This document shows, piece after piece, positions 31,641-48,700 of a stretch of 64,000 nucleotides of DNA (the stretch's first letter is position 1; each line of letters starts with the position of its first letter). The notes under the pieces are model-generated. The model saw nothing but the letters and a program-made list of their open reading frames with translations. It made no database searches and had not been told where the DNA came from. The stretch is from Ralstonia soli (lineage in GTDB: Bacteria; Pseudomonadota; Gammaproteobacteria; Burkholderiales; Burkholderiaceae), in the NCBI RefSeq assembly GCF_023955655.1, contig NZ_JAMXHT010000005.1, forward strand, positions 497,462 to 561,461, in the 5' to 3' direction. Position numbers and translations under genes: made by a program.

Positions 31641-31765
31641 CTGAGTCGGCTGACTGCATCGGCTGACCGAGCCGTTCACGCCGGCGTTTCTGCCGTTCGT
31701 CGCAATCCGCTCCCGCGTGCCGCAACCGGCACCCAAGCTGGCGTCATTCCAACAGGGAGACCGCC

Positions 31766-32269: not shown

Positions 32270-32363
32270 TCCTGTCCCACCCCGGGATGCGCTGATCCCG
32301 CCCCCGATCGGCGTGTCAGCGTTAACATCTGCATGTTGCAATCTCCATCCAACACGAGACGAC

Positions 32364-33188
32364 ATGCTGGAACTCGACGGCACCATCTGGCTGCGCGCCG
32401 GTGAAGACAATTGGGGCGGTCACGGCCGCATCGAACTGCTGGCTGCCATCGGCCAGACGGGCTCCATCACTGCGGGTGCCAAGGCCGTGGGGCTGTCCTA
32501 CAAGGCTGCGTGGGACGCCATCGACACCATGAACAACCTGGCCGGCGAGCCGCTGGTGGTGCGCACCACGGGCGGCAAGGGCGGTGGCGGCAGTGTGCTG
32601 ACGCCGCGCGCGCAGCGGCTGATCGAGAGCTTCCGTGTGCTGGAAGCCGAGCACCGCCGATTTGTCGAATGCCTGGACGCCGCCGCGCGAGCCGCGAGTG
32701 AAGATGCCCACCTGCTGCGACGCCTGATGCTGCGCACGAGCGCGCGCAATGCGCTATTCGGCACGGTGGAATCGGTGGCATCGGGCGCCGTCAACGATGT
32801 GGTGTCGCTGCGCCTGCCGGGCGGCCAGGCCGTGGCCGCCACCATCACGCAGGAAAGCACGCATGCGCTGGGGCTGGCACCGGGCGTGCAGGCCGTCGCG
32901 CTCATCAAGGCGCCCGCCGTGATGCTGCTGCGCAGTATGGGCGACGGCGTGGGCGAGTGGCGCGTGTCGGCAGAAAACCAGTTGCCATGCGTGGTGACGG
33001 AAATTCGCGATGGCGCGGTACAGGCCGAAGTGCGCCTGCGTTTGCTGGATGCGCATGCCGCATCGGCGGGTGAAACCGTGCTGGTGGCCATGCTCTCGCG
33101 CACGGCGGTCGAGACGCTGGGCTTGGCCGAGGGTGTGGAGGCCGTGGCCGTGTTCGAGGCGTCGAGCGTGATTCTCGGGTTGGCGTAG
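32364..33188 (+). CDS. modE: Molybdate-responsive regulator ModE (HTH + two MOP domains)
   Basis: 274 residues from ATG 32364. N-terminal LysR-like winged helix (about 1-110: GRIELLAAIGQTGSITAGAKAVGLSYKAAWDAIDTMN, read in parts, and GGKGGGGSVLT). C-terminal molybdate-binding pair of MOP/TOBE domains (about 130-200 and 205-272; RTSARNALFGTVESV, NQLPCVVTEIRDGAVQAEV). Full length for E. coli-type ModE. Molybdate-bound ModE represses mod genes; modB and modC lie 0.5 kb downstream on the opposite strand. A flavodoxin gene begins 5 bases after its stop. Confidence 0.93.
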   Translation: MLELDGTIWLRAGEDNWGGHGRIELLAAIGQTGSITAGAKAVGLSYKAAWDAIDTMNNLAGEPLVVRTTGGKGGGGSVLTPRAQRLIESFRVLEAEHRRFVECLDAAARAASEDAHLLRRLMLRTSARNALFGTVESVASGAVNDVVSLRLPGGQAVAATITQESTHALGLAPGVQAVALIKAPAVMLLRSMGDGVGEWRVSAENQLPCVVTEIRDGAVQAEVRLRLLDAHAASAGETVLVAMLSRTAVETLGLAEGVEAVAVFEASSVILGLA

Positions 33189-33193
33189 GCGCC

Positions 33194-33694
33194 ATGGCTG
33201 CAGCCAAAACGCTGCTGATCGTCTATCACTCGATGACGGGCGGCACGCGCCAGATGGCCGAGGCTGCGCAGGCGGGCGCCGTTGCGGAAGGCAGCGTGGT
33301 CGTGCGCTTGCTCCACGCGGCGCAGGCAGGGCCCGACGATGTGCTCGCGGCGGACGGCTACGTCTTTGCCACACCAGAGAACCTCGCCGCCATCAGCGGG
33401 CAGCTCAAGGATTTTTTTGACCGCTGCTACTACCCCGCACTGGACCGCATCAACGGCCGTCCTTACGCATGCCTCATCTGCGCGGGCAGCGACGGCCAGA
33501 ACGCCGTGCGGCAGATCGACCGCATCGCCACCGGCTGGCGGCTCAAGCCCGTGGCCGAGCCCATCATCGTGTGTACACATGCGCAAACGCCCGAGGCCAT
33601 CCTGGCCTCCAAGCACATCGGCGCAGAAGCGCTAGAACGTTGCCATGCCCTGGGCGAGGCGTTGGCAACCGGGTTGGCGTTGGGCGTGTTTTAG
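33194..33694 (+). CDS. Flavodoxin-family protein
   Basis: 166 residues. N-terminal strand and phosphate loop LLIVYHSMTGGTRQMAEAA bind FMN; the second loop FATPENLAAISGQLKDFFDRCYY (in two parts) is typical of the flavodoxin/NAD(P)H-dependent FMN reductase group. The start is ATG 33194, only 5 bases after modE, so the two genes form one transcript. A redox role in molybdenum metabolism or in a molybdoenzyme is possible but not shown. It converges with modC, 9 bases apart. Confidence 0.85.
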   Translation: MAAAKTLLIVYHSMTGGTRQMAEAAQAGAVAEGSVVVRLLHAAQAGPDDVLAADGYVFATPENLAAISGQLKDFFDRCYYPALDRINGRPYACLICAGSDGQNAVRQIDRIATGWRLKPVAEPIIVCTHAQTPEAILASKHIGAEALERCHALGEALATGLALGVF

Positions 33695-33703
33695 GTCCGG
33701 ACC

Positions 33704-34435
33704 CTAGCGGTTCACCACCGCCGTCAGATGCGGATAGGGCGACAGCGGGGGCGCATCCGGCGAGCGCACCGCATCGGCCACCACGCGGCCATCGCGCAGC
33801 TCGAACACGTGGTCACCGAAAATCTCCACATCGGCTGGGTCATGCGTGATCATCAGCATCGGCACCTGCAGCCGCGCTTGCAGGGCAGACAGCTCCGAGC
33901 GCATGCGTGTGCGCAGCGCCGGGTCCAGCGCGGCAAAAGGCTCGTCGAGCAGCAGCATGGAGGGTTCGGCGATCAGCGCACGGGCCAGTGCCACCCGCTG
34001 GCGCTGGCCTCCCGAGATCTGCGCAGGGTAGTTGGCGGCCACGGCGCCCAGTTCGAACGTGTCGATCCACGGCTGTACGCGCGGGTCATGCCGACGACGG
34101 GGCGGGTTGAACCACCCGCGCTTGAGCCCGAACGCGATGTTCTGCGCCACCGTCAGGTGGTTGAAGAGCGCGTAATCCTGGAAGAGATAACCGACGCGGC
34201 GCTCCTGCACGCTGAGGCTGACCCCCTCGGTGTGGTGGAACAGCGTGCGGCCGTTCAGCACGATATGGCCGCGGTCGGGCGTCATCAGGCCGGCGATGGC
34301 ACGCAGCGTGAGGCTCTTGCCTGCACCGGACGGCCCGTACAGCACCACGCGATGGCTGTCAGAACGCACGGCAATGTCGAGCGAGAACACACGTGCCGCG
34401 CTCGCCAGCGTCTTCTGCACGACGAGGTCGATCAT
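33704..34435 (-). CDS. modC: Molybdate ABC transporter ATP-binding protein, short form
   Basis: 243 residues, ABC ATPase with Walker A GPSGAGKSLT (about 35), Q-loop FQDYALF, signature SGGQRQRVALARAL (about 138), Walker B LLLDEPFAALD and the switch histidine in ITHDPADV. Typical ModC proteins are about 350 residues and end in a molybdate-binding MOP domain; here the protein stops shortly after the nucleotide-binding domain, with only a 40-residue tail. ATG 34435 overlaps the stop of modB by ATGA. Molybdate is preferred over sulfate because of modE nearby and because the permease looks like ModB. Confidence 0.85.
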   Translation of the reverse strand: MIDLVVQKTLASAARVFSLDIAVRSDSHRVVLYGPSGAGKSLTLRAIAGLMTPDRGHIVLNGRTLFHHTEGVSLSVQERRVGYLFQDYALFNHLTVAQNIAFGLKRGWFNPPRRRHDPRVQPWIDTFELGAVAANYPAQISGGQRQRVALARALIAEPSMLLLDEPFAALDPALRTRMRSELSALQARLQVPMLMITHDPADVEIFGDHVFELRDGRVVADAVRSPDAPPLSPYPHLTAVVNR

Positions 34436-35118
34436 GCCGGCTGCTCCTGCAGGCTGGGTGCTCGCCCTTGCAGCAGGCGGCTGGCCACCACCAGCACCAC
34501 GATGCAGGTGAGCGAGGTGATCAGCACCAGCGTGTTGGCGGTGGCATCGTCGCCGGCCTGCACGGCTTCGTAGATGGCGACGGAGAGCGTCTGCGTGCGG
34601 CCGGGCAGGTTGCCGGCAATCATCAGCGTCGCGCCAAACTCGCCCAGCGCACGTGCAAACGCCAGCAGCACCCCGGCGGCAATGCCGCGCGCGGCCAGCG
34701 GCAGCGTCACGCGAAAGAACACAGCCGCTTCCGGCAGGCCCAGCACGCGGGCGGCGTTTTCCAACTGGTGGTCTACCCCCTCAAACGCGGCGCGTGCCGA
34801 CTTCATGACCAGCGGAAACGCCACCACCGTGGAGGCGATCACCGCGCCCTGCCACGTAAAGACGAGCTGGATGCCCATGCTGTCGAGCCATCCGCCGATT
34901 GGGCCGCGCCGGCCCAGCAGCACGAGCAGGTAATAGCCGAGCACGGTCGGCGGCAGCACCAGCGGCAGCGTGAGCACCGAATCGATGACGTCACGCAGGC
35001 CGCTGCGCATGCGCGCCAGTGCGTAGGCGGCGGCGACGCCCAGGACGAGGTTGAGGGCGGTCGCCCAGCCGGCCACCTTGAGGGAGAGCAGCAGGGGCGT
35101 CCAGGTCGAAGCGGACAT
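34432..35118 (-). CDS. modB: Molybdate ABC transporter permease
   Basis: 228 residues, about five helices. The ABC permease coupling loop (EAA motif) is ENAARVLGLPEAAVFFRVTLPLAARGIAAG (in two parts). The N-terminus PLLLSLKVAGWATALNLVLG and LTLPLVLPPTVLGYYLLVLLG are ModB-like. It is the first gene of the pair; upstream there is no modA for the binding protein, only about 710 gene-free bases. A candidate ModE site lies 48-71 bases upstream of its start. Confidence 0.9.
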   Translation of the reverse strand: MSASTWTPLLLSLKVAGWATALNLVLGVAAAYALARMRSGLRDVIDSVLTLPLVLPPTVLGYYLLVLLGRRGPIGGWLDSMGIQLVFTWQGAVIASTVVAFPLVMKSARAAFEGVDHQLENAARVLGLPEAAVFFRVTLPLAARGIAAGVLLAFARALGEFGATLMIAGNLPGRTQTLSVAIYEAVQAGDDATANTLVLITSLTCIVVLVVASRLLQGRAPSLQEQPA

Positions 35119-35165
35119 GTCGCGGGTAAAAGCGGTGAGACGGCGGCTGAATGGAGTGTCGTAAG

Positions 35166-35189
35166 CGCAATATAGGGTCGGTGATAACG
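35166..35189. promoter_or_regulatory. Candidate ModE operator upstream of modB
   Basis: CGCAAT-N12-ATAACG, 24 bp. The E. coli modA operator, as I remember it, is CGTTAT-N12-ATAACG with the same spacing; one half here is perfect and the other matches four of six. The position 48-71 bases before modB and the nearby modE gene support it. Confidence 0.45.
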
Positions 35190-35829
35190 GTGGTCAATGC
35201 ACAGTGCCTGATTCCGCATATGGGAACAGCGAAATAACGCCTGGCGACGTGACAGCGGAGGCGGGAGCCATGGCGTGCCTTGGTCGCAGCCATGATGAAG
35301 TGGCATATCCGGACGCCGCCGATACCTGCGCATCGCCGCTTCTCGATGCCTGTGTGCAGACAAAAGGAGACACCCCGGGGGATGGGCGGGAATGCCGTCG
35401 CGCGTTTGCACCTGTATTGGCGTTGCCTCTTCACCGGTACGCGAATGCAAGGCCGATCGCCTCCTGATTGCCGGTTCCGCAGCGGAAAATAACGCGTTCA
35501 GGCAATGAAATGGCTGTATCGCAAGTCCGGAAGCGGCTGTGCGCCTGGCGAACGATTCTTGCAATAGGTGCGCTTTGCCATTAAGTTTCCGCCGGATTTG
35601 CCGTTTATCATTCGAGCCCCCGAAAAAGGGGGTAATGCCAGTCAGCCATTCTGTTTAAAAAAACGTGGGGTGGCGGCGAAGGTCTGTTCATTGAGAAAAT
35701 CGCGGCCTGCACGACGCCCGATTTCCACGCCCACAGTCGCAGGAGAGCAGAGGTGGCGTCCACCGATTTTCCGCCTCGTCAGTCCTGTATGCGCATGCGT
35801 CGTGCATGCCGTGCCCTTTCTATCCGGTT
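35190..35829. other. Gene-free stretch upstream of the polysaccharide operon
   Basis: About 640 bases without a reading frame I can support; the longest plus-strand frame (35204-35467) has no ribosome site. The right half is noticeably richer in A/T than the neighbours (for example GTTTAAAAAAACG near 35655), and there is a small C5/G5 hairpin at about 35615-35631. This suggests a promoter with a long regulated leader for the operon starting at 35830, and possibly imported DNA. I see no recognisable riboswitch and no strong sigma70 box. Confidence 0.4.
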
Positions 35830-36999
35830 ATGAAAATTCTCTCCGTCTTCGGTACGCGCCCCGAAGCGATCAAGATGGCGCCGCTCGTCAAGGTCCTAGC
35901 TGAGCAGTCCGCCATGGAATCGGTCGTGTGCGTGACGGGGCAGCACAAGCAGATGCTGCAGCAGGTGCTGGACCTGTTCGACATCGTTCCGCAGTACGAC
36001 CTGGAACTGATGACGCAGAACCAGACACTGAACGGACTCAGCGCGCGCCTGCTGACAGCTTTTGACGACGTGCTGGAGACGGTGCGTCCCGACCGCATCC
36101 TCGTGCATGGCGATACCACCACGGCCATGATGTCGGCGCTGGCGGCATTCCATCGCCGCATTCCCATCGGCCACGTGGAAGCCGGCCTGCGCACGGGCGA
36201 CTTGTACCAGCCGTGGCCAGAAGAGATGAACCGCCGCACCATCGACGTCTGCGCCGACCTGTTGTTTGCGCCCACCGAATCGTCGCGCCGCAACCTGCTG
36301 GCTGAGAACCTGGGCGGGCGCATCCTGGTGACGGGCAACACCGTGATCGACGCGCTGCTGCAGACCACGCAACGCATCCTGAAGGACGACGCCTTCCGCG
36401 CCGAACTGGATGCGCACTTCCCGTTCCTGCAGGACGATCGCAAGGTGCTGCTGGTGACGGGCCACCGCCGCGAGAACTTTGGCCCCGGCTTCGCCAACAT
36501 CTGCGAGGCACTGGCCGCGCTGGCACGCCGCGACGACATCCAGATCGTCTACCCGATCCACCTGAACCCGAACGTGCGCGGCCCGGTGCAGACGGCGCTG
36601 GCGGGCCTGCCCAACGTGCACCTGATCGAACCGCTGGATTACGCGCGCTTCGTGCGGCTGATGCAACGCGCCCACGTGATCCTGACGGACTCGGGTGGCG
36701 TGCAGGAAGAGGCGCCGTCGCTGGGCAAGCCGGTGCTCGTGATGCGCAACGTAACGGAGCGCCCCGAGGCCGTGCAGGCCGGCACTGTGCGCCTGGTCGG
36801 TACGGAGGTGGACAGCATCGTGGGTGCCGTCAACCACCTGTACGACAACGACGACGCATGGCGCGCGTTCTCGCAGCACCTGAACCCGTATGGCGATGGG
36901 CTGGCTTCGCAGCGCATCGTGTCCGCCCTGGGGGGCGGGTTCGTCCAGGAGTTCCTGGGCGACATGGGCGGCATGGACGACGAGCGCGAAGCCGCCTGA
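35830..36999 (+). CDS. wecB: UDP-N-acetylglucosamine 2-epimerase (non-hydrolysing)
   Basis: 389 residues, GT-B fold, starting KILSVFGTRPEAIKMAPLV. Other signatures: VHGDTTTAMMSALAAF, GHVEAGLRTGDLYQPWPEE, VTGHRRENFG and TDSGGVQEEAPSLGKPVLV. It interconverts UDP-GlcNAc and UDP-ManNAc in the cytoplasm. The ATG at 35830 is chosen by homology; an in-frame ATG 24 bases upstream exists and neither has a clear ribosome site. It is the first gene of a seven-gene operon, so UDP-ManNAc is probably the sugar donor, or one of them, for the glycosyltransferase 19 bases downstream. Confidence 0.93.
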   Translation: MKILSVFGTRPEAIKMAPLVKVLAEQSAMESVVCVTGQHKQMLQQVLDLFDIVPQYDLELMTQNQTLNGLSARLLTAFDDVLETVRPDRILVHGDTTTAMMSALAAFHRRIPIGHVEAGLRTGDLYQPWPEEMNRRTIDVCADLLFAPTESSRRNLLAENLGGRILVTGNTVIDALLQTTQRILKDDAFRAELDAHFPFLQDDRKVLLVTGHRRENFGPGFANICEALAALARRDDIQIVYPIHLNPNVRGPVQTALAGLPNVHLIEPLDYARFVRLMQRAHVILTDSGGVQEEAPSLGKPVLVMRNVTERPEAVQAGTVRLVGTEVDSIVGAVNHLYDNDDAWRAFSQHLNPYGDGLASQRIVSALGGGFVQEFLGDMGGMDDEREAA

Positions 37000-37018
37000 C
37001 CGAAAGGCGATCACGATC

Positions 37019-38353
37019 ATGTCTGCCCTTGCGATCGATATCCTGCAGGTTCTTCTGCTCTGCATCGTCATGCTGCTGGTGATCTACACCGCGCGGCATT
37101 ACCTGTTCACGCTGAACCGACTGTTTGGCCGCCAGCGCCAGCCGTATCTCGATATCGAGCAGGGGCTGTGGCCGAGCGTGGTCGTCTGCGTGGCCGCGCA
37201 CAATGAAGAGCGCGTGATTGCCGACTGCCTCAATGCGCTGCTGCAGGTGGACTACCCGCAGGACAAACTGACCATCATGCCGGTCAATGACCGCTCGAAA
37301 GACCGCACGCGCGAGATCATCGACGAGATCGCGGCGCGCAATCCGGGCCGTTTTCAACGGTTCCACCGCACCGAAGGCCGGCCCGGCAAGGCGGCCGCGC
37401 TGCGCGATGCGACGCAGCTGATCGATGCCGAGATCATGATCGTGTTCGACGCCGACTACCTGCCGGCGCGCGGCCTGATCAAGCAGCTCGTGGCACCGTT
37501 TTTCGACCCCGAAGTCGGCGCCATCATGGGCCGCGTGGTGCCCGTGAATGCCGGGGCCAACCTGCTGACGCGCCTGCTCGACCTGGAGCGCTCCGGCGGC
37601 TATCAGGTGGACCAGACCGCCCGCATGAACCTGGGCCTGGTGCCCCAATACGGCGGCACCGTGGGGGGCGTGCGCCGTCGCGCGTTGGACGATATCGGCG
37701 GCTGGAACATCGACACGCTGGCCGAAGACACCGACGTGACGTTCCGCCTGCTGCAGCACGGCTGGAAGACGGTCTACCAGAACCGCTCCGAGTGCTACGA
37801 GGAAGTGCCCGAAGTCTGGCCCGTGCGTCTCAAGCAGATCAGCCGGTGGTCGCGCGGCCACAACCAGGTGATGGTCAACAACATCCGCAAGCTGCTCGCC
37901 AACGATCGGATCGGCAAGCTGGAGCGGCTCGACGGCGCGTTGCTGCTGCTCATCTTCATCATGCCGATGGTGCAGCTGCTTGGCTGGGTGGTGGCGGTCG
38001 TCCTGTTCTACGTGGCGGCGCAGTCCATGGTCTCGGGCTGGGTGCTGCTGGCCGCGCTGATGTGCTACGGCGGGTTGGGCACCAATGCCGCGTTCTTCGA
38101 GATTGCGGCGGCCACGTACCTCGACGGGCATCGCAACCGCATCCGCCTGCTGCCGCTGAATCTGTTCGGCTTCCTGGTCAGCATGATGACGATCTCGCGC
38201 GCCGGGGTGACGCAGATGATCGACGCCTGGAAGAAGCGCGAACTGGTGTGGGACAAGACCGAGCGCTTTCGCACCGAAACCTCCGACGTGGTGAGCATCA
38301 TGGACGGCGAAGGCCCCATCGGCCGCGCCCGCACCGGTTCGGAGCGCACATGA
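37019..38353 (+). CDS. Processive family-2 membrane glycosyltransferase (polysaccharide synthase)
   Basis: 444 residues from ATG 37019 (AAAGG 11 bases upstream). One N-terminal helix (about 8-28), the GT2 catalytic domain (about 45-300), then three or four C-terminal helices (about 305-400). The synthase signature D,D,D,QxxRW is complete: NDRSKDRT, VFDADYLP, EDTDVTF and QISRWSRGH. This is the plan of PgaC, NodC and cellulose/hyaluronan synthases, which polymerise and extrude the chain through the inner membrane. The next gene overlaps it by ATGA. Confidence 0.92.
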   Translation: MSALAIDILQVLLLCIVMLLVIYTARHYLFTLNRLFGRQRQPYLDIEQGLWPSVVVCVAAHNEERVIADCLNALLQVDYPQDKLTIMPVNDRSKDRTREIIDEIAARNPGRFQRFHRTEGRPGKAAALRDATQLIDAEIMIVFDADYLPARGLIKQLVAPFFDPEVGAIMGRVVPVNAGANLLTRLLDLERSGGYQVDQTARMNLGLVPQYGGTVGGVRRRALDDIGGWNIDTLAEDTDVTFRLLQHGWKTVYQNRSECYEEVPEVWPVRLKQISRWSRGHNQVMVNNIRKLLANDRIGKLERLDGALLLLIFIMPMVQLLGWVVAVVLFYVAAQSMVSGWVLLAALMCYGGLGTNAAFFEIAAATYLDGHRNRIRLLPLNLFGFLVSMMTISRAGVTQMIDAWKKRELVWDKTERFRTETSDVVSIMDGEGPIGRARTGSERT

Positions 38354-39393
38354 TCGGAAACCTTCTGCTGCTGGGCGGTTCTGTGGCGGGCCTGCTGGTT
38401 CTGCCGTTCCTGCCGGCATTGTCGGAGTGGCTGCGCCCGACGGATTCCGCGCCGCTGCCAATGCGGCGTGACCAGCCGAACAATCTCACGTTCTTCGCCA
38501 ACAGCTTTCGTCGCCGGCTGCAGGATCAGTATGGCGTCGACGTTGATGCAATGCGCACCGCGGGCACTGCATACCAGGTGCCCGTCAGCGCGGAACTCAG
38601 TGTCGGCCGGGATCCGCGTGGCTTGGCCCCGGACGAGCAGGCGGCGTTGAAGCGGGCACTGGGCAAGGGCAACCACATCGTGGTCTTTCGCGGCAATGCG
38701 TGGCTGGGTTCGCGCAGCCGTGTGCGCGCCGATCTGTATGTCGAGCAGGATGTGGCCGTCGAGCGCGACACCCGCCTGCGCGCCTGCCTGGCCGAGGGCG
38801 ATATCGAACTCGGCGAAAACGTGGTGGTGCAGCGCTGGGTGCATGGCCGCAATGTCCGCTTCTCGCCCAATGTGCGCATCGAGGGCCGCGTCACGGCGCA
38901 GGAACACATCGTGATGGCTGCCCCCGCGCATTTCGAACGTGCCAGCGCCAGTGATGTGATGTTTGGCGATACCCGCGGCGCTGCGCACCCGGTGGACTTG
39001 CCCAAGCCGGCAACCGAGCGTCGCGTACTGGACGGCGAAGCCACCTTGTCCACGGACAATGCCACCGATGGCGATTACGTCGTGCGCGGCGATTGCCGTG
39101 TCTCGGGCGGTACGGTGCTCGAAGGCAGCATCAAGACGCACGGACACTTGCGCACGGGTGAGGGCGTGCGCATTGCCGGAACGCTTTCGGCACGCAAGAA
39201 TCTCGAGATCGGCGCGGGCAGCGCTGTACTCGGCCCGTTGATCGGCTTTGAAGATATCGTGCTTGGCCCGAACTGCCGCATCGGCCGTCCGGATGCGCCC
39301 ACCACGCTCGTGTGCAACCGCTTGTTCGTCTCGCCGGGTTGTGTCGTGCATGGCGTGATCACCGCGCACGAGTTTGCCCGAGTGCAAGGGTAA
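38350..39393 (+). CDS. Membrane-anchored bactofilin-like / polymer-forming protein
   Basis: 347 residues. One N-terminal helix (LLLLGGSVAGLLVLPFLPAL), then about 60 residues with no clear fold, then a long region (about 110-345) of short beta-strand periods such as GNAWLGSRSRVRADLYVEQD, GDIELGENVVVQ, VRIEGRVTAQEHI, GSIKTHGHLRTGEGVRIAG and SARKNLEIGAGSAVLG. This is the right-handed beta-helix pattern of bactofilins (PF04519), here repeated to more than twice the usual length. ATGA overlap with the synthase gene implies a close functional link. It may be a scaffold for the synthase at the membrane. The side of the membrane is not certain. Confidence 0.75.
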   Translation: MIGNLLLLGGSVAGLLVLPFLPALSEWLRPTDSAPLPMRRDQPNNLTFFANSFRRRLQDQYGVDVDAMRTAGTAYQVPVSAELSVGRDPRGLAPDEQAALKRALGKGNHIVVFRGNAWLGSRSRVRADLYVEQDVAVERDTRLRACLAEGDIELGENVVVQRWVHGRNVRFSPNVRIEGRVTAQEHIVMAAPAHFERASASDVMFGDTRGAAHPVDLPKPATERRVLDGEATLSTDNATDGDYVVRGDCRVSGGTVLEGSIKTHGHLRTGEGVRIAGTLSARKNLEIGAGSAVLGPLIGFEDIVLGPNCRIGRPDAPTTLVCNRLFVSPGCVVHGVITAHEFARVQG

Positions 39394-39403
39394 GGAGGTT
39401 CGC

Positions 39404-40417
39404 ATGGTCGCCTTCTGGAACCGCTGTGTCCGCCACTGGAGCGCTGTGTTAGCAGGTTTGGTCCTGTGGACGGCTACCGCTCAGGGGGCGACGATGTTTG
39501 AAGACTTCATCACGCCCGATGGAGCGATGACCGTATTCGCCCAAGGCGATTACGTGGAGCCCTACGTCGCCATCGAGGCGTTGCTGGTGGCCCATCGCCT
39601 GGGTGTTGATGTGCAGGCGCCTGCCGTGGGGTTGGCTAACTGGCTGCTGCCGTATCAACAGGCCAACGGCGCATTCCCGCGCATCTGCCGCAGCGGCACA
39701 AACGGTACGAGCGCTACAAGTGGCGCAAACGGCTGGACGGTCTGCGGCCAAGCCGATGCGGACGACTCGCAGGCTGCGTTCTGGTGCCTGCTCGTCAACG
39801 AGATCCTGCACGGCCCACCGCAACTGCTGGCGAGTTGCAGCCGCTCGCTGCTGCACCTGACCGCGCTGTGGGACCCGACGCGCACCACCTTCCAGGCGTT
39901 CGCCGATGGGCCGGCAGCCTACTTTGCCGACAACGTGGAAGTGATCGGCTCGCTCAATTGGCTGCGTGCCGATCCCAGGGCGTCGCTGCAATACGCGCTG
40001 GAGCTAGCTTTGCTGCCGTCGAACAAGCAACTGATGGACGGCCTGGCAAAGGCCTACGGCTATCAGTTGAATGGCGCGCTCGATCCCGCACGCGTCAGTC
40101 TGCCGCCTGTGCCGTACGGGTTCTATCCAACGGCGGTGGCGCCGGTCTACCCGTGGGTTCATGGCCTGGAGGCCATCCCCACCGCGCAGCGCAAATGGGC
40201 GGTGTGGAAGGTCCGTTACGGGCAGGCATGGCTGTCCGGCCAGGCAGACCCTTTCCCGTGGGGCATGATCGCGTGGGCCGCCTACAAGCTGGGTGATGCG
40301 CAGACTGCGCTCAAGTGGCTTCAGGCCGCGCCGCAATGGCGTGCGGCAGGCCGCTGGAATTTGATGGAAGAGGGCGCGCTTGTCGGGCTCTCGCATGCAC
40401 TGGCTGTTTCCCAATGA
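39404..40417 (+). CDS. Secreted protein of unknown function, predicted helical (alpha/alpha) barrel
   Basis: 337 residues, excellent ribosome site (AAGGAGG, 5 bases before ATG). Signal peptide VLAGLVLWTATAQG (cleavage about 28). The mature part is mostly helical with repeated W/Y and conserved aspartates (PDGAMTVFAQGDYVEPYVAIEA in two parts, QADADDSQAAFWCLLVNE), as in alpha/alpha toroid carbohydrate-active proteins such as glycoside hydrolases or lyases of polysaccharide loci. Three or four cysteines (ICRSG, VCGQ, FWCLL, SCSRS) may form disulfides. I do not recognise the family; carbohydrate binding or trimming is inferred from position. The stop overlaps the next ATG. Confidence 0.7.
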   Translation: MVAFWNRCVRHWSAVLAGLVLWTATAQGATMFEDFITPDGAMTVFAQGDYVEPYVAIEALLVAHRLGVDVQAPAVGLANWLLPYQQANGAFPRICRSGTNGTSATSGANGWTVCGQADADDSQAAFWCLLVNEILHGPPQLLASCSRSLLHLTALWDPTRTTFQAFADGPAAYFADNVEVIGSLNWLRADPRASLQYALELALLPSNKQLMDGLAKAYGYQLNGALDPARVSLPPVPYGFYPTAVAPVYPWVHGLEAIPTAQRKWAVWKVRYGQAWLSGQADPFPWGMIAWAAYKLGDAQTALKWLQAAPQWRAAGRWNLMEEGALVGLSHALAVSQ

Positions 40418-42261
40418 ACATGACTTCCAAGACGACCTGGGGCAAGCGCCTGGCTGGTCTGCTGATCCTGGTTGCCTTCGTGGCGTGCGCGTTGCTGCTG
40501 GCGCGTAATCTCAGTGCCGGCCCCGGCCGGCCGCAGTCCGATGACATCGTGCTGGTGGTGCCCGACAACGTGGGTAAGGACAACCGCGTCTATGTCCAGG
40601 CTTGGGAGGACGCCGCACTGGAAGAGGGCGTACGCCTGCGCACGATGTCGGCGTCGGAGTTCGTGCGCCATGGGTTGAACGGTGAGCGCACGTTCGCGGG
40701 CGTGATCCTGCCTGACACCGTGCACCGTTCGATGACCACCGCGCTCATCAACCAGATCAGCCAGTTTGTGCAGAACGGCGGCGCGCTGATGCAGGTCTAT
40801 GACGCGGGCATCCTCAACGAGAAGGGCTTTTACGAAGACGGCGCCTCGCGCATGTCGACGCTGGCCGGCGTGCAGTACGGTTTCTATTCAGCCCTGCGCG
40901 CAAAGATGGAGGCCCAGGCGACTGTCTACGGCGATCCCGATGTGATGGCCGATCTGCACATCCCGCCGGGCCGGTGGATCGTCGCCGATGGGCGTGCCGT
41001 GCTGTCGGGCTACGGGCGGGACATGCTGCAGTATCCGACCCTGCAGACACGTGGCGACTATGCCGGCACGGTGCTGCTGCGCTCGGAGGACAACTCCGTC
41101 ATCGCGGGCGAGCGCGCGGTGGGCAAGGGCGCCGTGCTGTTTGTCAACCTGCCGCTGACGTATCTCAAACTGCGGACCGACGGCGTGCTGATGCACGGTT
41201 TCCTGAGCTACTTTGCCGGCCACATGCTGGAGCAGCCGCGCCTGTCACCGGCACCGCAGGGTGTGGGCGGCCTGGTGCTGAACTGGCACTGCGATGCGCG
41301 CATCTGTATCGACGCGACCGATAAGCTGATCAAAGACGGCGTCTTCAAGCGCGGCCCGTTCAGCTTCCACATTACCGCAGGCCCCGACCAGCGCCAGTTT
41401 GGCGACGGCCTGGGCGTGGACCTCGCCAACAACCCCGAGTTTGCAGATGTGGTGCATGGCCTGATGCAGCAGGGCCACGAGGTGGGCAGCCATGGCGGCT
41501 GGATTCACGACTGGTTCGGCCTGACCGTGAATGAAGACAACCAGGCCAGCATGGAGACCTATCTGCAGAAGAACGCAGACGCCATTCAGGCGCTGACCGG
41601 CAAGCCGCAGACCGAGTATTCCGCGCCTACCGGCAATCAACCCGAATGGGCGACACGCTGGCTGGACGAGCACAACGTCAAGGGCTACTACTTCACGGGC
41701 AACATTGGCCAGGGCCCTACGCGCACGTATCGCAACGGCCGGCGAGACGAGCACATCTGGTCGTTCCCGGTCCAGACATATGGCCAGTACTCGACCATTG
41801 AAGAAGCGTATATGTCGAGCATCCCCGAGCCGGAGATTGCGGCGTGGCTCACGTCGCTGGTGAAGTTCACCACCGACACGGGCGAGGTCCGCCTGATCTA
41901 TTTCCACCCGCCGGGCGCGGTGCGCTACCTGCATGCTATCGACGCGCTGATGGACGCAGCCGATGCGCAAGAGGCGCGCAAGCGGTTCCGCTGGCACACC
42001 ATCACGCAGATGGCCGAGTTTGCCGAGCGGCGGGAGAAGACCGTATGGCAGGTAACATCGGCGCGCGGTGATCTGCGCCTGAACGCAGAGAACCCGCAAA
42101 CATTGAACGAGTTGACCTGGTTGTTTCCGGTGGATCGCTATGACGAGCCACGCGTGGAGGATGGGCAGGCCAGTGTGAACCGGGAAGGCGACAATTGGCG
42201 CGTGGTGGCGGGGGCCGGTAACAAGCTTGCCGTTGCAGCAAGGCTGAAGACGGGCAGCTAG
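40414..42261 (+). CDS. Membrane-anchored polysaccharide deacetylase-like protein with N-terminal Rossmann-like domain
   Basis: 615 residues; ATG 40414 overlaps the upstream stop (ATGA), a second ATG follows six bases later. N-terminal signal anchor (about 12-32). Residues about 45-285 resemble a glutamine-amidotransferase-like (beta-galactosidase trimerisation-type) fold: DIVLVVPDNVG, GVILPDTVH, GGALMQVYDAGIL. Residues about 290-550 resemble a NodB deacetylase: LNWHCDARICID in place of TFDDG, HEVGSHGGWIHDW for the HxxSH-type metal site, YSAPTGNQP for motif 3, LIYFHPPGA for the later motif. Metal-binding residues seem mostly retained, motif 1 is unusual. Likely periplasmic modification of the polymer. 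Confidence 0.75.
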   Translation: MNMTSKTTWGKRLAGLLILVAFVACALLLARNLSAGPGRPQSDDIVLVVPDNVGKDNRVYVQAWEDAALEEGVRLRTMSASEFVRHGLNGERTFAGVILPDTVHRSMTTALINQISQFVQNGGALMQVYDAGILNEKGFYEDGASRMSTLAGVQYGFYSALRAKMEAQATVYGDPDVMADLHIPPGRWIVADGRAVLSGYGRDMLQYPTLQTRGDYAGTVLLRSEDNSVIAGERAVGKGAVLFVNLPLTYLKLRTDGVLMHGFLSYFAGHMLEQPRLSPAPQGVGGLVLNWHCDARICIDATDKLIKDGVFKRGPFSFHITAGPDQRQFGDGLGVDLANNPEFADVVHGLMQQGHEVGSHGGWIHDWFGLTVNEDNQASMETYLQKNADAIQALTGKPQTEYSAPTGNQPEWATRWLDEHNVKGYYFTGNIGQGPTRTYRNGRRDEHIWSFPVQTYGQYSTIEEAYMSSIPEPEIAAWLTSLVKFTTDTGEVRLIYFHPPGAVRYLHAIDALMDAADAQEARKRFRWHTITQMAEFAERREKTVWQVTSARGDLRLNAENPQTLNELTWLFPVDRYDEPRVEDGQASVNREGDNWRVVAGAGNKLAVAARLKTGS

Positions 42262-42363
42262 CCGCCAGCTGTCGACCAGACGGAGCAGTCAGATTGGACA
42301 GGGCCGCGGCTATGCATTCAAAAAGGCGGGCGCCCACATTGATAACAGACGGGGAATACCAGC

Positions 42364-43314
42364 GTGGATCGAACTTCAATCGCGTGGATGGTCGCTGCAG
42401 CCATGAGCGGCATGACGGCGCCCACCGCATGGGCGCAAGCGGGCCAAGAACAGCAGACACAGCGGGCAGAGGCTCAGCCGGGGCAACCGGCCGCGCAGGA
42501 GGGCGCCGCCGCCTCGGCTGGTGCAACGGCCGTCGCCGTGACGCCTGTGCCCGCGCCAGGCGCCGACGCCGCCACCGTGCCGCAGCCGTTGCCTGCTCCC
42601 TATGCACCCGAGCGGGCCGCTATTGAAGTCGTGCTCGACAACGGTCGCATGACCGACGGTAACGGCGGCGCCACCGCGCTGGCCGTGCGCGGCATGATGG
42701 TCACGCCGTACGGCATCTGGCAGGCAGAGCTGGATCGCCAGAGCCGCTTCGGCTTTGCCGGGCAGTACGGCGCGTTGTCGCTCACCCGCGATCTTTCGGA
42801 CGACTATTACGTCACCGTCGGTGCCGGCACGGGCAACAGCGAGCTGTTCTCCAAGTGGCGCGTTGACGTAGCCGGTTATCGCAAGTTTGGCCCTGACCGC
42901 CGCTTCGTCGCAGGCATTGGCGCCTACTACGCGCAAGGACAGGACAGCGACCGCTCCGACCAGGGCCTGGTGCTGAGCACGCTGGCGTACTTCCAATCGG
43001 TGGTGCTCGAAGGCGGACTGCGCTTCAATCGGGCCAATCCAGGCATGGTGTTCGGCCCCAGCCAGTACATCGCAGCCACAATCGGCAATGACGAGAAGCG
43101 CGCCCTGATCTTGCGCGTGGAGCACGCCCGCGAGGCGTATCAGGTGTTGTCCACCGGCAGCGAACGTGCGGACTACAACAGCATGAGCTACGGCGTGCAG
43201 TGGCGCGAGCGCGTCTCGCGCGACCTGCTTCTGCTGATCGGTGCGCAGTACTACCACAACCCCTTCTACAACCGCACGTACGGTGAAATCGGTTTCCGCT
43301 GGAGCTTCCGATGA
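42364..43314 (+). CDS. YaiO-family outer-membrane beta-barrel protein
   Basis: 316 residues from GTG 42364, which gives a proper signal peptide (SIAWMVAAAMSGMTAPTAWAQA); the ribosome site is weak and 102 bases separate it from the previous gene. A Pro/Ala/Gln-rich linker (about 25-80) precedes a beta-barrel of alternating strands (GIWQAELDRQSRFGFAGQYG, YYVTVGAGTGNSELFSKWRV, VVLEGGLRFN, LLLLIGAQYYHNPFYNRTYG) ending GEIGFRWSFR with the terminal Phe/Arg typical of barrels. YaiO barrels occur next to GT2 and deacetylase genes in the E. coli yaiOPS locus. Likely export pore or surface anchor for the glycan. Confidence 0.8.
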   Translation: MDRTSIAWMVAAAMSGMTAPTAWAQAGQEQQTQRAEAQPGQPAAQEGAAASAGATAVAVTPVPAPGADAATVPQPLPAPYAPERAAIEVVLDNGRMTDGNGGATALAVRGMMVTPYGIWQAELDRQSRFGFAGQYGALSLTRDLSDDYYVTVGAGTGNSELFSKWRVDVAGYRKFGPDRRFVAGIGAYYAQGQDSDRSDQGLVLSTLAYFQSVVLEGGLRFNRANPGMVFGPSQYIAATIGNDEKRALILRVEHAREAYQVLSTGSERADYNSMSYGVQWRERVSRDLLLLIGAQYYHNPFYNRTYGEIGFRWSFR

Positions 43315-44156
43315 GCGCCAAGCCGTTGCCTGATGAGGCCTCGGCAGGCGCACCGCCTGACAAGCGCCGCGTGCGCGGGCATCAACCCAAGCGCGTGATC
43401 GGTTACCGCGGCGACCGCATCCTCATGCACCGTGCAATGCGGCGCTTGGCGTTTCCGTTGTCGCGCTGGGTCGACGTGCTAGGCATTCCGTTGGCCCTGA
43501 CTATTGGCTACTGCGCGATATGGCCGATGGTGGCAGCGCTGTGGCAACGCATCATCGGCTTCTGGAACGTGGCGCTGGAAGGGCAGGTTCGCCTGGCAGC
43601 CGTCAAGGCGCTGGTGCCGGGGTTCGGCTCGATCCCGTATCCGCACAGCGATGCCGCACTGCCCACGTCCGTGCAATGGCTGGTCGGCATGATCGTGACG
43701 CTGGTGCTGCTGTTCGGTACGCGATTCATCAGTGGCCGTGCGCTGCCGCTGGCGTACTGGCTGCGCTTCATTGGCGTGGTGCAGGCCAGCGCCCAGTTCT
43801 ACTTCTTCATCTGGCCGGCGAGCTTTCCGTATGACGGCGGCGGGTCGATCGGCTCGCTCATGCAGGCGTCAGTGGTGGTGGTGCTGATCACGCCGTGGCT
43901 CTATGCGCTGATCTATAACGTGCTGGACTTCGGCTTCGTGCGCAAGCTCGTGCTGTCGGTCATGGGCATGGCGTATCTGACGGTGTTCATCCCGTTCCAG
44001 TACACGCTGGCATCGGTGGTGCTGCTCAAAGGGTCGATGCTCTGGTATCCGCAGATCTTCCTGCTGTGGGCCGTGTTCCTGCAGTTCGGCATGCTGGTCG
44101 GCTTCTATGCGTGGGCGATGAGCTGGAAGGCACGCGGCGCGAAAAACGCGACCTGA
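43311..44156 (+). CDS. Six-helix inner-membrane protein of the polysaccharide operon
   Basis: 281 residues, ATG overlapping the upstream stop (ATGA). A basic cytoplasmic N-terminus (about 1-45; KRRVRGHQPKRVIGYRGDR) is followed by six hydrophobic helices (about 50-75, 122-142, 148-170, 185-205, 212-235, 242-268). Trp- and Tyr-rich loops. It is the last gene before a terminator on the other strand. I recognise no family. A role in synthase assembly or in transfer of the polymer is likely only from its position. Confidence 0.7.
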   Translation: MSAKPLPDEASAGAPPDKRRVRGHQPKRVIGYRGDRILMHRAMRRLAFPLSRWVDVLGIPLALTIGYCAIWPMVAALWQRIIGFWNVALEGQVRLAAVKALVPGFGSIPYPHSDAALPTSVQWLVGMIVTLVLLFGTRFISGRALPLAYWLRFIGVVQASAQFYFFIWPASFPYDGGGSIGSLMQASVVVVLITPWLYALIYNVLDFGFVRKLVLSVMGMAYLTVFIPFQYTLASVVLLKGSMLWYPQIFLLWAVFLQFGMLVGFYAWAMSWKARGAKNAT

Positions 44157-44172
44157 CCTGACGCCGTCCCTC

Positions 44173-44196
44173 AAAAGAAACGCGGCCGAAGCCGCG
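44173..44196 (-). terminator. Rho-independent terminator of the RND operon
   Basis: Read on the minus strand: CGCGGC-TTCG-GCCGCG, a UUCG tetraloop hairpin (44181-44196), followed by TTTCTTTT (44173-44180). It lies 41 bases after the end of the outer-membrane channel gene. Confidence 0.85.
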
Positions 44197-44236
44197 CTGA
44201 ATCTCGCTTTCCAGAGAGAGGGAGCCATCCTTACGT

Positions 44237-45763
44237 TTACTGCTGCGCCACCGTTGCGGGCTTGGCTTGGTCCGGTGGCGGCAAGTCACCCCAACCGCCG
44301 CCCAGCGCCTTGATCAGCCCCACCGTGGCATTCACCCGGCTGCCCGCGAGCTGTACGCCGATGCGCTCGGCGGACAGCATATTGCGCTCGGCATCGATCA
44401 CATCCAGGTAGTTGACCGAACCCGCGTTGTACCGCGTGCGCGAAAGCTGCGCGGCACGCGACGAGGCACGCACCGCATCGTCCTGGGCCCTGGATTGATC
44501 GGCCAGCAGGCGCAGGTCTGACAGGTTGTCTTCCACCTCGCGGAAGGCCACCAGCACGCTCTCGCGGTAATTGGCGACATTCTCTTCGTATGCGGCACGC
44601 GCTTGCTTCACGCCGGCGCTGCGTGCGCCGCCGTCAAAGATCGGCAACGACAGCGCGGTGCCGACCAGGGGCCCGAGAATCCACGTACGGCTGCCCCACT
44701 TGAGCAGGTCGCCGATGTCGTGCGATTCATAGCCGAAGCCGCCCGTGAGCTGCAGTTGCGGGAAGAATGCTGCGCGCGCCACGCCAATGCGCGCATTGGC
44801 CGCAGCCATCGACCGCTCTGCCGCAGCCACGTCTGGACGGCGTTCCAGCAGGGCGGAGGGAAGGCCGGCCGGCACGCGCACATCCATGGTGTCCAGCGGC
44901 TGGGTCGTCATGCTGAAGTCGGCCGGAGCCTTGCCCAGCAGCGTGGCCAGCGCGTGTTCGAGCACGGCGCGACGGCGCTGCACGCCAATGCGGTCGGAAC
45001 GTGCCGTGGCCAGTTCAGCATCGGCGCGGGCCACATCCAGCTCGCCGATGTCGCCGGTGTTGAAGCGGCGCTGCACGAGCTTGAGTGCCTCTTCACGGCC
45101 GACCAGCGTGCGGGCGAGCAACGCCTCTTCCGCGTCGAGCGTGCGCAGGCTGAAGTACGTCTGCGCGACGTCGGCCTGCAGCGACAGGCGGGCCGCGCGG
45201 TACAGCGCCTCGACACGCTCTGCATCGGCATCGGCGGCACTCACGCTATTGTGTACGCGGCCGAACAGGTCAGCCTCATACGCCACGGTGGCCTGTGCGC
45301 GCCAGTAGGTCTGCGGCTGCACCGGTGCGCCGACCGGCAGGCCCGCCGATGCGGCCGAACCCCGCTGGCGCGTGGGGCCGAAACCCGCATCCAGTTCCGG
45401 GAACAGCGATGCCCGGTTGGCCTGCACGAAGGCGCGGGCCTGAGTTACACGCGCGGCAGCGGCGGCCAGCGTGGGGCTGGCTTCCGCGGCCTGCGCTTCG
45501 AGCTTGTCGAGCGTCGGGTCGTTGAAGATCTTCCACCATGCGCCATCGGCGGGCAGGGCGGGCTCGGCGGTCTTCCACTTGCCTTGCTCGCTGGCGGCCA
45601 GCGGTGCGTCTGCTGGCTGGGCCGCCTCCTTGAAGGCGTTGGGCGTACCGACGTCTGGCTTCTCGTACGTTGGGGCCAGCGAGCAGGCCGCGAGGAACAG
45701 CGCGGCGGCCAGCGCCAATGGCGTCCAGCGGCCCGGCCTCATTTGTTGTTTGAACGCGTTCAT
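44237..45763 (-). CDS. RND efflux outer-membrane lipoprotein channel (NodT/OprN type)
   Basis: 508 residues from ATG 45763. Signal with lipobox LAAC (about residue 24). Two OEP (PF02321) repeats (about 85-275 and 300-490) with long coiled-coil helices: AAAARVTQARAFVQANRASLFPEL and VEALYRAARLSLQADVAQTYF in repeat 1, ANARIGVARAAFFPQLQLTGGFGYES and RSAGVKQARAAYEENVANYRES in repeat 2. It forms the trimeric TolC-like duct. It starts 13 bases after the RND pump stop and closes the operon. Confidence 0.93.
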   Translation of the reverse strand: MNAFKQQMRPGRWTPLALAAALFLAACSLAPTYEKPDVGTPNAFKEAAQPADAPLAASEQGKWKTAEPALPADGAWWKIFNDPTLDKLEAQAAEASPTLAAAAARVTQARAFVQANRASLFPELDAGFGPTRQRGSAASAGLPVGAPVQPQTYWRAQATVAYEADLFGRVHNSVSAADADAERVEALYRAARLSLQADVAQTYFSLRTLDAEEALLARTLVGREEALKLVQRRFNTGDIGELDVARADAELATARSDRIGVQRRRAVLEHALATLLGKAPADFSMTTQPLDTMDVRVPAGLPSALLERRPDVAAAERSMAAANARIGVARAAFFPQLQLTGGFGYESHDIGDLLKWGSRTWILGPLVGTALSLPIFDGGARSAGVKQARAAYEENVANYRESVLVAFREVEDNLSDLRLLADQSRAQDDAVRASSRAAQLSRTRYNAGSVNYLDVIDAERNMLSAERIGVQLAGSRVNATVGLIKALGGGWGDLPPPDQAKPATVAQQ

Positions 45764-45776
45764 AGCGATGTCTTGA

Positions 45777-48700
45777 TTAGTGTTGACCCGACGGCACAGG
45801 CAGTGCGCCATCTAGGTCCAGATCACGGTCCGAAGCATCCTCCGAGCGCTGGCCGCGGCGTGCGGCCAGCGTGCGCAGCAGCACGTAGAACACCGGCGTG
45901 AGGAACAGGCCGAACAGCGTCACACCCAGCATCCCCGCGAACACGGCCACGCCCATGGCATGGCGCATTTCCGCGCCGGCACCGGTCGACACCACCAAAG
46001 GCACCACGCCCATGATGAAAGCGATCGACGTCATCAGGATCGGGCGCAGACGCAGGCGGCAGGCCTCGATGGCGGCTTCCACGATGGAGCGTCCTTGCAG
46101 CTCAAGCTCCCGTGCAAACTCCACGATCAGGATCGCGTTCTTGCACGCCAGCCCCACCAGCACCACCAGACCGATCTGCGTGAAGATGTTGTTGTCTCCA
46201 TGCGAGACCCACACGCCCAGCATGGCGGCAAACAGGCTCATCGGCACGATCAGGATCACAGCGAGCGGCAGCGTCAGGCTTTCGTACTGCGCAGCCAGCA
46301 CCAGGAACACCAGCAGCACGCAGATCGGGAAGATCCACACCGCCGAGTTGCCAGCCAGGATTTGCTGATACGTCAGGTCGGTCCACTCGAAGCGCACGCC
46401 CTTGGGCAGCGTTTCATGCGCGATGCGTTCCACTGCGGCCTGTGCCTGGCCCGACGAGAAGCCCGGCGCCGGGCCACCGTTGATGTCGGCAGCGGTGTAG
46501 CCGTTGTAGCGCACCACCATGTCCGGCCCGAAGCCCTGCGACACGCGCAGCAGCGATGACAGCGGCACCATGTCACCCGCCTGGTTGCGCGTCTTCAGTT
46601 GCAGGATGTCTTCGGCATGGGCGCGGAACGGCGCGTCTGCCTGCACCTTCACCTGGTACGTGCGGCCGAAGCGGTTGAAGTCGTTCACGTACAGCGAGCC
46701 CAGATACACCTGCATGGTGTCGAACACATCCGTGACCGGCACGCCCAACTGCTTGGCCTTTACGCGGTCCAGATCGGCATTCAACTGCGGCACGTTGATC
46801 TGGTAGCTGGAGAACGACGGCCCCAGTTCCGGCGCCTTGCGTGCCTTTGCCATGAAGGCCTGCGTGGCGGCAAAGAGCTGCTCGTAGCCGACTGAACCCC
46901 GGTCTTCGATCTGCATCTTGAAGCCGCCCACCGTGCCGAGACCCTGCACCGGCGGCGGCGGGAATACCGCGATGAACGCGTCCTTGATGGCGCCGTATTG
47001 CTTGTTCAACTGGCCCGCAATCGCACCGCCCGACAGGTCGGCGCTCTTGCGCTGGTCAAACGGCTTGAGCGTGACGAACACGATGCCGGCGCTCGGGCTG
47101 TTGGTGAAGCCGTTGATCGACAGGCCCGGGAAGGCCACGGCGCTTTCCACGCCGGGGTGCTTCAGGGCGATGTCCGACATGCGGCGGATCACGTCTTCCG
47201 TGCGGTCCAGCGAGGCACCGTCCGGCAGTTGCGCGAAGCTCACCAGATATTGCTTGTCCTGCATCGGCACGAAGCCGCCCGGCACCTTGTTGAACAGCAG
47301 TGCGGTCGCGCCGATCAGTGCGAGGTAGATGCCAAGCATCACCGCCTTGCGACCGATCACGCGCGAGGTGCTGCGGCCATACGATTCCGAAGCCGCACCA
47401 AACACACGGTTGAACGGACGGAAGATCCAGCCCAGGCCCTTGTCCATCGCACGCGCCAGCCAATCCTTGGGCGCGTCATGGCTCTTGAGTAACAGTGCTG
47501 CGAGCGCCGGCGACAGCGTGAGCGAGTTGAACGCTGAGATCACGGTCGAAATTGAGATCGTCAGCGCGAACTGCTTGTAGAACTGACCGGTCAGGCCCGT
47601 CATGAAGGCCAGCGGCACGAACACGGCAATCAGCGTCAGCGCAATGGCGATGATCGGGCCGCTCACCTCGCGCATGGCCTTGTACGTCGCCTCGCGTGGT
47701 GATAACCCTTCGGCGATGTTCCGCTCGACGTTTTCCACCACCACGATGGCATCGTCCACCACGATCCCGATCGCCAACACCAGCCCGAACAGCGACAGCG
47801 CGTTGATCGAGAAGCCGAACATCAGCATCAGACCGAACGTACCGATGATCGACACCGGCACCGCCAGCAGCGGAATGATCGACGCGCGCCACGTCTGCAG
47901 GAACAAGATCACCACGAGCACCACAAGCGCCACCGCTTCCAGCAGCGTGTGCGTGACGGCTTCGATACTCGATCGGACGAACTGCGTCGGGTCATAAACG
48001 ATGCGGTAGTCGACACCTTCGGGAAAGTCCTGCTTCAGTTCCTCCATCGTCTTGCGCACGTCATCCGAAATCTGCAGGGCGTTGGACCCCGGCGCCTGGA
48101 AGATCGGAACGGCCACTGCCTGCTTGTTGTCCAGCAGCGAGCGCAGGCCGTATTCCGATGCGGCCAGCTCGATGCGGGCCACGTCGCGCAGGTACGTCAC
48201 CGCGCCGTTGGGCGAGCTCTTGAGGATGATGTCGCCGAATTCCTGCTCGGTCTTCAGGCGCCCTTGCGCGTTGACGGACAGCTGCAAGTCCGTGCCCGGC
48301 ACCGACGGCGAACCGCCGATTACACCGGCCGCCACCTGCACGTTCTGGTCGCGGATGGCCTTGACGACTTCGTTGGCCGTCAGACCGCGCTCGGCGACCT
48401 TGTTCGGGTCAAGCCACACGCGCATCGAGTAGTCACCCGAGCCAAACAGCTGCACCTGGCCTACACCGGCGATACGCGCAAGGCGATCCTTGACGTTGAG
48501 CACCGCGTAGTTGCGCAGGTACGTCATGTCGTAGCGGTCGTTGGGCGACAGCAAGTGCACCACCATCGTCAGGTCGGGGCTGCTCTTGATGGTGGTCACG
48601 CCCAGGCGTTGCACCACATCTGGCAGGCGCGGCAGCGCTTGCGAGACGCGGTTCTGCACCAGCTGCTGTGCCTTGTCGGGGTCGGTGCCCAGCTTGAAGG

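Follow-up and report, generated by a model that had tools for sequence, protein, structure and literature searches.

A 64,000-nucleotide stretch of the Ralstonia soli genome (contig NZ_JAMXHT010000005.1, positions 497,462 to 561,461 of the forward strand; hereafter the window, whose own coordinates are used throughout) carries a seven-gene operon at 35830-44156 on its + strand, which is a real, conserved and apparently uncharacterised secretion unit; in this the main call of an initial annotation of the same DNA stands. From 5' to 3' the genes, all on the + strand, encode; 1) WecB; 2) a glycosyltransferase of the GT2 family; 3) a bactofilin-like protein; 4) a secreted (alpha/alpha) toroid; 5) a deacetylase-like protein; 6) a YaiO-family barrel; and, 7) a polytopic inner-membrane protein. 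We consider it probable that the operon encodes synthase-dependent secretion of a glycan containing N-acetylmannosamine (ManNAc), and a ManNAc homopolymer would be the simplest product, because there is one GT2 domain.

The open frames confirm seven co-directional genes with gaps of 19, 10 and 102 bases, as annotated. The four ATGA overlaps also reported were a miscount, since seven genes have six junctions and only three of these are ATGA (at 38350, 40414 and 43311). A codon-score gene caller, trained in part on members of these families, picks all seven genes; the start of gene 6 is uncertain, the caller preferring 42388.

Neighbourhood maps were tallied over 35 loci that hold the family GT2, with presence set by our own score thresholds and with L074, a copy of L014, dropped (L and G numbers are our handles for loci and genomes). 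The bactofilin-like gene and gene 4 are present at all 35 loci, YaiO and gene 7 at 34, WecB at 33, gene 5 at 30 and a GlmS-type gene at 10. The bactofilin-like gene adjoins that of the GT2 in every one of the 35, and gene 7 adjoins YaiO in 34 of the 34 loci holding both (in L151 on opposite strands); the GT2 locus that has neither, L152, sits at a contig end. The neighbourhood survey called for by the initial annotation thus finds a set that recurs as a unit and is not scattered, and the steadiness of the GT2-bactofilin and YaiO-gene 7 pairs suggests that the machine has two physical parts, one a synthase on its scaffold and the other an exit.

The set recurs in Ralstonia (R. pickettii SSH4 and other Ralstonia having close relatives of the operon), Cupriavidus, Collimonas and further genera, in several gene orders. 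The order of the window, from WecB through GT2, bactofilin, gene 4, gene 5 and YaiO to gene 7, is found at 13 loci (Ralstonia, Cupriavidus, Collimonas and L150). At eight loci, of genus g12, a divergent WecB is followed by GT2, bactofilin, YaiO, gene 7, gene 5, gene 4 and GlmS, and at four, among them one on a Cupriavidus megaplasmid and one from a genome of another order, WecB and gene 5 precede GT2, bactofilin, gene 4, YaiO and gene 7; the remaining orders occur at one or two loci each. Thirty-five genomes were found via gene 4, 30 from the family sample and five more from the order sample, and 27 of them have the synthase in the mapped stretch, eight lacking it. The remaining eight GT2 loci were found via gene 5, and gene 4 is present in all of them. 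By rank, gene 4 was found in 30 of 200 genomes of the family, at least 7 of 300 of the order and at least 4 of 398 of the phylum, and gene 5 in at least 2 of 369 of the class; the order, class and phylum counts are lower bounds, as few candidates were scored per genome, and the samples share genomes. Within the genus, 8 of 16 genomes have YaiO.

Gene 2 (37019-38353) matches PF13641 at 101.5 bits (cut-off 27) and has, as judged by its sequence, both the D,D,D,QxxRW signature and the membrane helices of a processive-type GT2, consistent with an inner-membrane synthase. Residues D91, D144/D146, D237 and Q273-R276-W277 are invariant in 14 of 14 aligned members, which bears out the intact signature first noted, and the Asp, Arg and Trp columns are kept in 33 of 33 rows of a wider set. 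The alignments, A1 to A6, hold chosen members (13, 16, 14, 12, 14 and 14, respectively, A4 being without L052 and L053, where only a short stretch was recognised), and the residue counts of the wider set leave out L074, L075 and L011. Sequence matches of gene 2 in the PDB include cellulose synthases. Gene 2 reaches the cut-off of none of the 23 NCBIfam families listed, PgaC/IcaA coming closest with 131.7 bits against a cut-off of 422.3.

Gene 1 (35830-36999) was correctly named as WecB, the non-hydrolysing UDP-N-acetylglucosamine (UDP-GlcNAc) 2-epimerase, as it matches TIGR00236 at 474 bits (cut-off 210.15), and it would supply UDP-ManNAc. The host genome holds a single other WecB match, 33% identical, and no second close copy. 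GlmS was named by its SIS and glutamine-amidotransferase domains in L054 and L068, and elsewhere by similarity. Because WecB accompanies the synthase in changing positions and orientations and a GlmS-type gene is found at ten loci, we favour UDP-ManNAc as the putative donor and read the linkage as pointing to an amino-sugar polymer with ManNAc. That the same machine makes a polymer based on GlcNAc, or a mixed GlcNAc/ManNAc one, with WecB merely adjusting the UDP-N-acetylhexosamine pool or with two sugars in the chain, we hold to be unlikely. The best curated family of the synthase, if far below its cut-off, is that of a GlcNAc polymerase, GlmS feeds UDP-GlcNAc, the WecB reaction runs in both directions and two loci have no WecB in the stretch; however, if ManNAc were unused it would be difficult to see why an epimerase is retained at 33 of 35 loci despite the changes in gene order, and to our knowledge the operons for poly-N-acetylglucosamine (PNAG) carry no WecB. 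In Ralstonia sp. TCR112 WecB is split into two frames (L011:5305-6611), which is either a real disruption or a sequencing error.

The barrel suggested for gene 6 (42364-43314) is borne out by TIGR04390 (147.2 bits, cut-off 32) and PF19413 (66.6 bits, cut-off 23.9), which place it in the YaiO family of outer-membrane proteins and make it the likely export portal; a search of PDB sequences gave no match at E 1. A relative 29% identical to gene 6 (NZ_AP025172.1:204209-204919) lies outside the full cluster on the megaplasmid of Cupriavidus sp. P-10, which also carries that cluster. Gene 7 (43311-44156) had been described as a six-helix protein, and it is indeed polytopic by hydropathy, whereas the number of helices is unsettled at about five to six hydrophobic stretches; none of 14 scanned members of its family has a Pfam match. 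O-antigen and common-antigen pathways often include WecB, and the operon might in principle make a cell-attached glycan, linked to lipopolysaccharide or forming a capsule, instead of a secreted exopolysaccharide. We regard this as very improbable, as among the seven proteins there is no match to a flippase, ligase, Wzy polymerase or ABC exporter family and the operon combines one GT2 with an outer-membrane barrel.

Gene 3 (38350-39393) encodes a bactofilin-like protein, as first proposed, with one N-terminal hydrophobic helix (residues 5-23 by hydropathy). It matches PF04519 at 29.6 bits (cut-off 27.9), all 12 scanned members of its family match the model at E up to 0.01, and its best match among PDB sequences is bactofilin A (2n3d, E 0.0013). 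Weak matches to left-handed beta-helix families (LbH_EIF2B, Hexapep and LpxD), all below cut-off, and a histidine, H334, invariant in 12 aligned members, although absent from the columns listed for the wider set, could instead speak for a hexapeptide-type acyltransferase that would act on the polymer or its precursor to modify it. Since no Pfam family but bactofilin is matched by all 12 members, and bactofilin also provides the best PDB sequence match, such an enzyme appears distinctly improbable and a scaffold is preferred.

For gene 4 (39404-40417), originally described as a secreted helical protein, the predicted fold changes the identity to a glycosidase-like (alpha/alpha) toroid with invariant carboxylates; two cysteines are kept in 41 of 42 rows. 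Based on this model gene 4 is likely to be a periplasmic glycoside hydrolase, and we treat it as a candidate for one. Its search against PDB sequences returned weak cyclase matches only, the best at E 0.095.

Gene 5 (40414-42261) encodes a membrane-anchored multidomain protein whose earlier label, deacetylase-like, holds for its family and predicted fold but not for the canonical Asp pair, which is absent. It matches PF01522 at 26.2 bits (cut-off 23.1), over positions 48-113 of 124, 10 of 13 members of its family match the same model at E up to 0.01, and the predicted structure is of a deacetylase type with a domain layout like those of Agd3 and PelA. CE4 enzymes possess an Asp pair where the first barrel strand ends, and a paired motif-2 His. 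In 13 of 13 aligned members of the gene 5 family (N/D)(W/M)H(C/F) replaces the Asp pair, and the motif-2 His varies, H360 being Gln in L052 and L053. Searching PDB sequences with the gene 5 profile gave no match at E 0.1 and, at E 10, mostly unrelated chains together with a single polysaccharide deacetylase (2j13, at E 0.67). No copy of gene 5 lies in the mapped stretches of L068, L069, L151 and L153 (nor in that of L152, which is cut), and none was found genome-wide in the genomes of L068 and L069. Gene 5 was also not found in ten genomes (eight synthase-less ones of g12 and two of g11), in a search that held no positive genome and whose query did match in the class-wide search.

Because gene 5 has no Asp pair, its motif-2 His varies and four stretches are without the gene, the partial deacetylation and cationic polymer put forward by the initial annotation are downgraded; we view gene 5 as a probable accessory, and deacetylation of the polymer as optional and putative. 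The same features, together with the partial coverage of the Pfam model and a CE4 pseudo-enzyme (7bkf) among the fold matches, would suit a pseudo-enzyme that binds and guides a polymer which stays acetylated. This is a serious possibility, if a little short of an even one, and it is compatible with secretion of a ManNAc-containing glycan. On the other hand, H292, D325, H365 and H498 are kept in 31 of the 31 rows that have a residue at these columns (32 rows in all, two pieces of L058 being counted separately), suggesting that a metal site has been preserved, if perhaps rearranged. Several irregular copies were seen. In G150 gene 5 is split into two frames (L058:6855-9323), by real disruption or sequencing error, in L154 two gene 5 relatives flank one cluster, and G537 has a second relative (L081) with none of the other operon genes in its 20 kb stretch.

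By family and predicted fold the operon unites a periplasmic modifying or cutting enzyme with an outer-membrane exit, as known systems do, yet none of the seven proteins matches a Pga, Bcs, Pel or alginate family over cut-off, so the gene set is distinct from the characterised Pga, Bcs and Pel systems, as had been claimed. The likeness to Pga, the PNAG system, lies in a GT2 synthase, deacetylase-like and hydrolase functions, which in Pga belong to PgaB (PMC5933820), and an outer-membrane exit. It ends with the synthase score given above and with the gene content, as no PgaA, PgaB or PgaD family is listed among the matches of the seven, and the operon has WecB, a bactofilin and YaiO as its barrel. 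Bcs shares a GT2 synthase with D,D,D,QxxRW, and the likely (alpha/alpha) hydrolase of gene 4 could take the role of BcsZ. However, the CelA model is matched at 79.6 bits against a cut-off of 699.1, BcsB (in gene 6) at 7.9 against 1218, and no PilZ domain is listed.

The predicted domain layout of gene 5 is shared with PelA and fungal Agd3. The Pel synthase is a GT4 and PelA carries a GH114 domain, whereas the operon synthase is a GT2 and no GH114 domain (PF03537) was found in gene 5. Gene 5 was rejected as a PelA by hhalign against five PelA-like Ralstonia proteins (probability 0.5%), these being inferred from PF03537 and length, as NCBIfam gave no PelA name for the two scanned; six regions were fetched and L114 was left out, its longest frame being on the other strand. 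In the genus, proteins matching PF03537 are either about 380 or about 1000 residues long, and the longer class is PelA-like; genome G000 has none, against 15 of 16 genus genomes with one.

The E. coli yaiO-yaiX-yaiP-yaiS region, treated in PMC4453288, likewise has a YaiO-family barrel (PF19413) near a GT2. The earlier view of yaiO-yaiP-yaiS as a reduced relative is not sustained, as YaiP matches the GT2 at 27% over 211 residues, YaiS is a PIG-L protein with no alignment to gene 5, and YaiO gives no pairwise alignment with gene 6, though both match the YaiO family. No WecB or bactofilin is annotated in the E. coli stretch shown, and in K-12 yaiX is split by IS2.

Other GT2-based exopolysaccharide clusters were compared through their descriptions. 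Xanthomonas xagA and xagB are required for the increased biofilm that an rpfG mutant forms (PMC3609779), and in the sfz/sfb stalk clusters Sfz1 is BcsB-like and Sfz2 has an EpsE-type N-terminal domain (PMC8250860); identity with xag or sfz was rejected, as BcsB-like and EpsE-type parts are not found among the seven proteins, xag being set apart by description. The Listeria monocytogenes pss operon (PssA-E; PMC5039582) is reported to direct production of a ManNAc polymer, a poly-beta-1,4-ManNAc with galactose side branches, which counts in favour of a ManNAc product here, but, by description, in a Gram-positive organism with no outer-membrane barrel. Going by their descriptions, the Rubrivivax psc1 cluster (Wza/Wzx/Wzy and PEP-CTERM genes), a Janthinobacterium wecB-deacetylase cluster (epsH, tyrosine kinase) and the Pseudomonas pap cluster (Wzy-like) have different gene sets. 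A full-text search of open-licence papers found no paper on the present set, which does not imply its absence from print.

In some relatives the operon is absent as a whole. Seven of the eight genus genomes without YaiO were inspected, and in three (L135, L136 and L137) the left flank (about 30003 to 35119) and the right flank (from 44173 or 44174) keep their collinear order and lie 208, 189 and 190 bp apart. Thus the upstream region and the seven genes are either there or missing as one 9.05 kb block (35120-44172, + strand). In L141 there is 1.5 kb between the flanks, and in L138-L140 the stretch taken gave a match to the right flank alone. Carriers too differ in their left flank, only L075 of five compared having the transporter genes of the window, and in G001 and G013 the operon does not adjoin the efflux gene. 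In a GT2 tree of 33 rows a Cupriavidus plasmid copy groups with genus g3 (100/100) and apart from the two remaining Cupriavidus copies, a placement that suggests transfer; the deeper nodes are unsure because of long branches.

Several points weigh against a dedicated ManNAc secretion system. The sugar, its linkage, all enzyme activities, the role of the bactofilin and the route through YaiO are deduced from sequence and predicted folds. The frequencies of genes 4 and 5 are biased, because all loci were found through one or the other; the other genes in the tally were not directly selected for. The bactofilin assignment is barely above cut-off, the toroid fold is common also to cyclases and complement C3d and so is not hydrolase-specific, and the replaced Asp pair of gene 5 belongs here too. 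WecB is missing from the stretch at L014, which is a metagenome bin, and at L019, and WecB relatives in Ralstonia genomes without the operon imply that UDP-ManNAc has other uses. Moreover, eight g12 genomes (L054, L061, L064, L067, L070, L071, L072 and L073) keep GlmS, gene 4 and a divergent WecB without the block of GT2, bactofilin, YaiO, gene 7 and gene 5 in the stretch, so GlmS, gene 4 and WecB may serve something else; between gene 4 and WecB of these loci tblastn (1e-2) found no remnant of the block, the synthase not being sought elsewhere in these genomes.

Upstream of the operon an element at 35614-35741 (+ strand), a CCCC/GGGG hairpin and the block that follows it, is kept in six aligned Ralstonia sequences and may be a promoter or leader. 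It has a single copy in the genome (allowing up to 3 mismatches), and a simple pattern finds it at 5 of 28 scanned loci, all Ralstonia, and not at L011, L014 or the copy L074. The 236-nt stretch 35600-35835 folds with z = -2.6, no Rfam match at gathering scores lies within 33000-46000, the element included, and a sigma-70 scan gave one site, on the opposite strand, against 1.4 expected. The upstream neighbours are ABC-transporter genes on the opposite strand, and downstream lies a convergent resistance-nodulation-division (RND) efflux operon, the hairpin between the two operons (44179-44198, a terminator-like site on the - strand) being a possible terminator; the evidence for this is weak because the region has six such sites against 5.7 expected. 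A PAS-GAF-GGDEF-EAL protein is encoded at 28989-31640, about 4 kb upstream, and the operon proteins themselves list no PilZ domain.

We propose that WecB would convert UDP-GlcNAc to UDP-ManNAc, which the GT2 would polymerise in the cytoplasm while threading the chain through its own membrane helices, and that the bactofilin-like protein, anchored by its one helix, may cluster or position the synthase. In the periplasm the toroid hydrolase could trim or edit the chain, and gene 5, a membrane-anchored CE-type protein, where present, would bind and possibly N-deacetylate it. The chain would then leave via the YaiO barrel, whose putative inner-membrane partner is the polytopic protein. More tentatively, and less likely than not, this may be a new Gram-negative class of poly-ManNAc secretion. 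In it the synthase would be organised at the inner membrane by a bactofilin polymer anchored there, and YaiO with its polytopic partner would form the trans-envelope exit; in that case YaiO proteins in general would be exopolysaccharide portals.

On this proposal YaiO, a poorly understood barrel family, gains a testable job as an exopolysaccharide portal, and Gram-negative bacteria gain a full candidate system for making a polymer of N-acetylmannosamine. That a bactofilin-like protein and the synthase are so constantly paired suggests that a secretion machine may have a cytoskeletal scaffold, and the dedicated hydrolase is a candidate reagent to recognise or dissolve the polymer. Finally, the natural presence and absence of the whole block in related genomes permits direct comparison.

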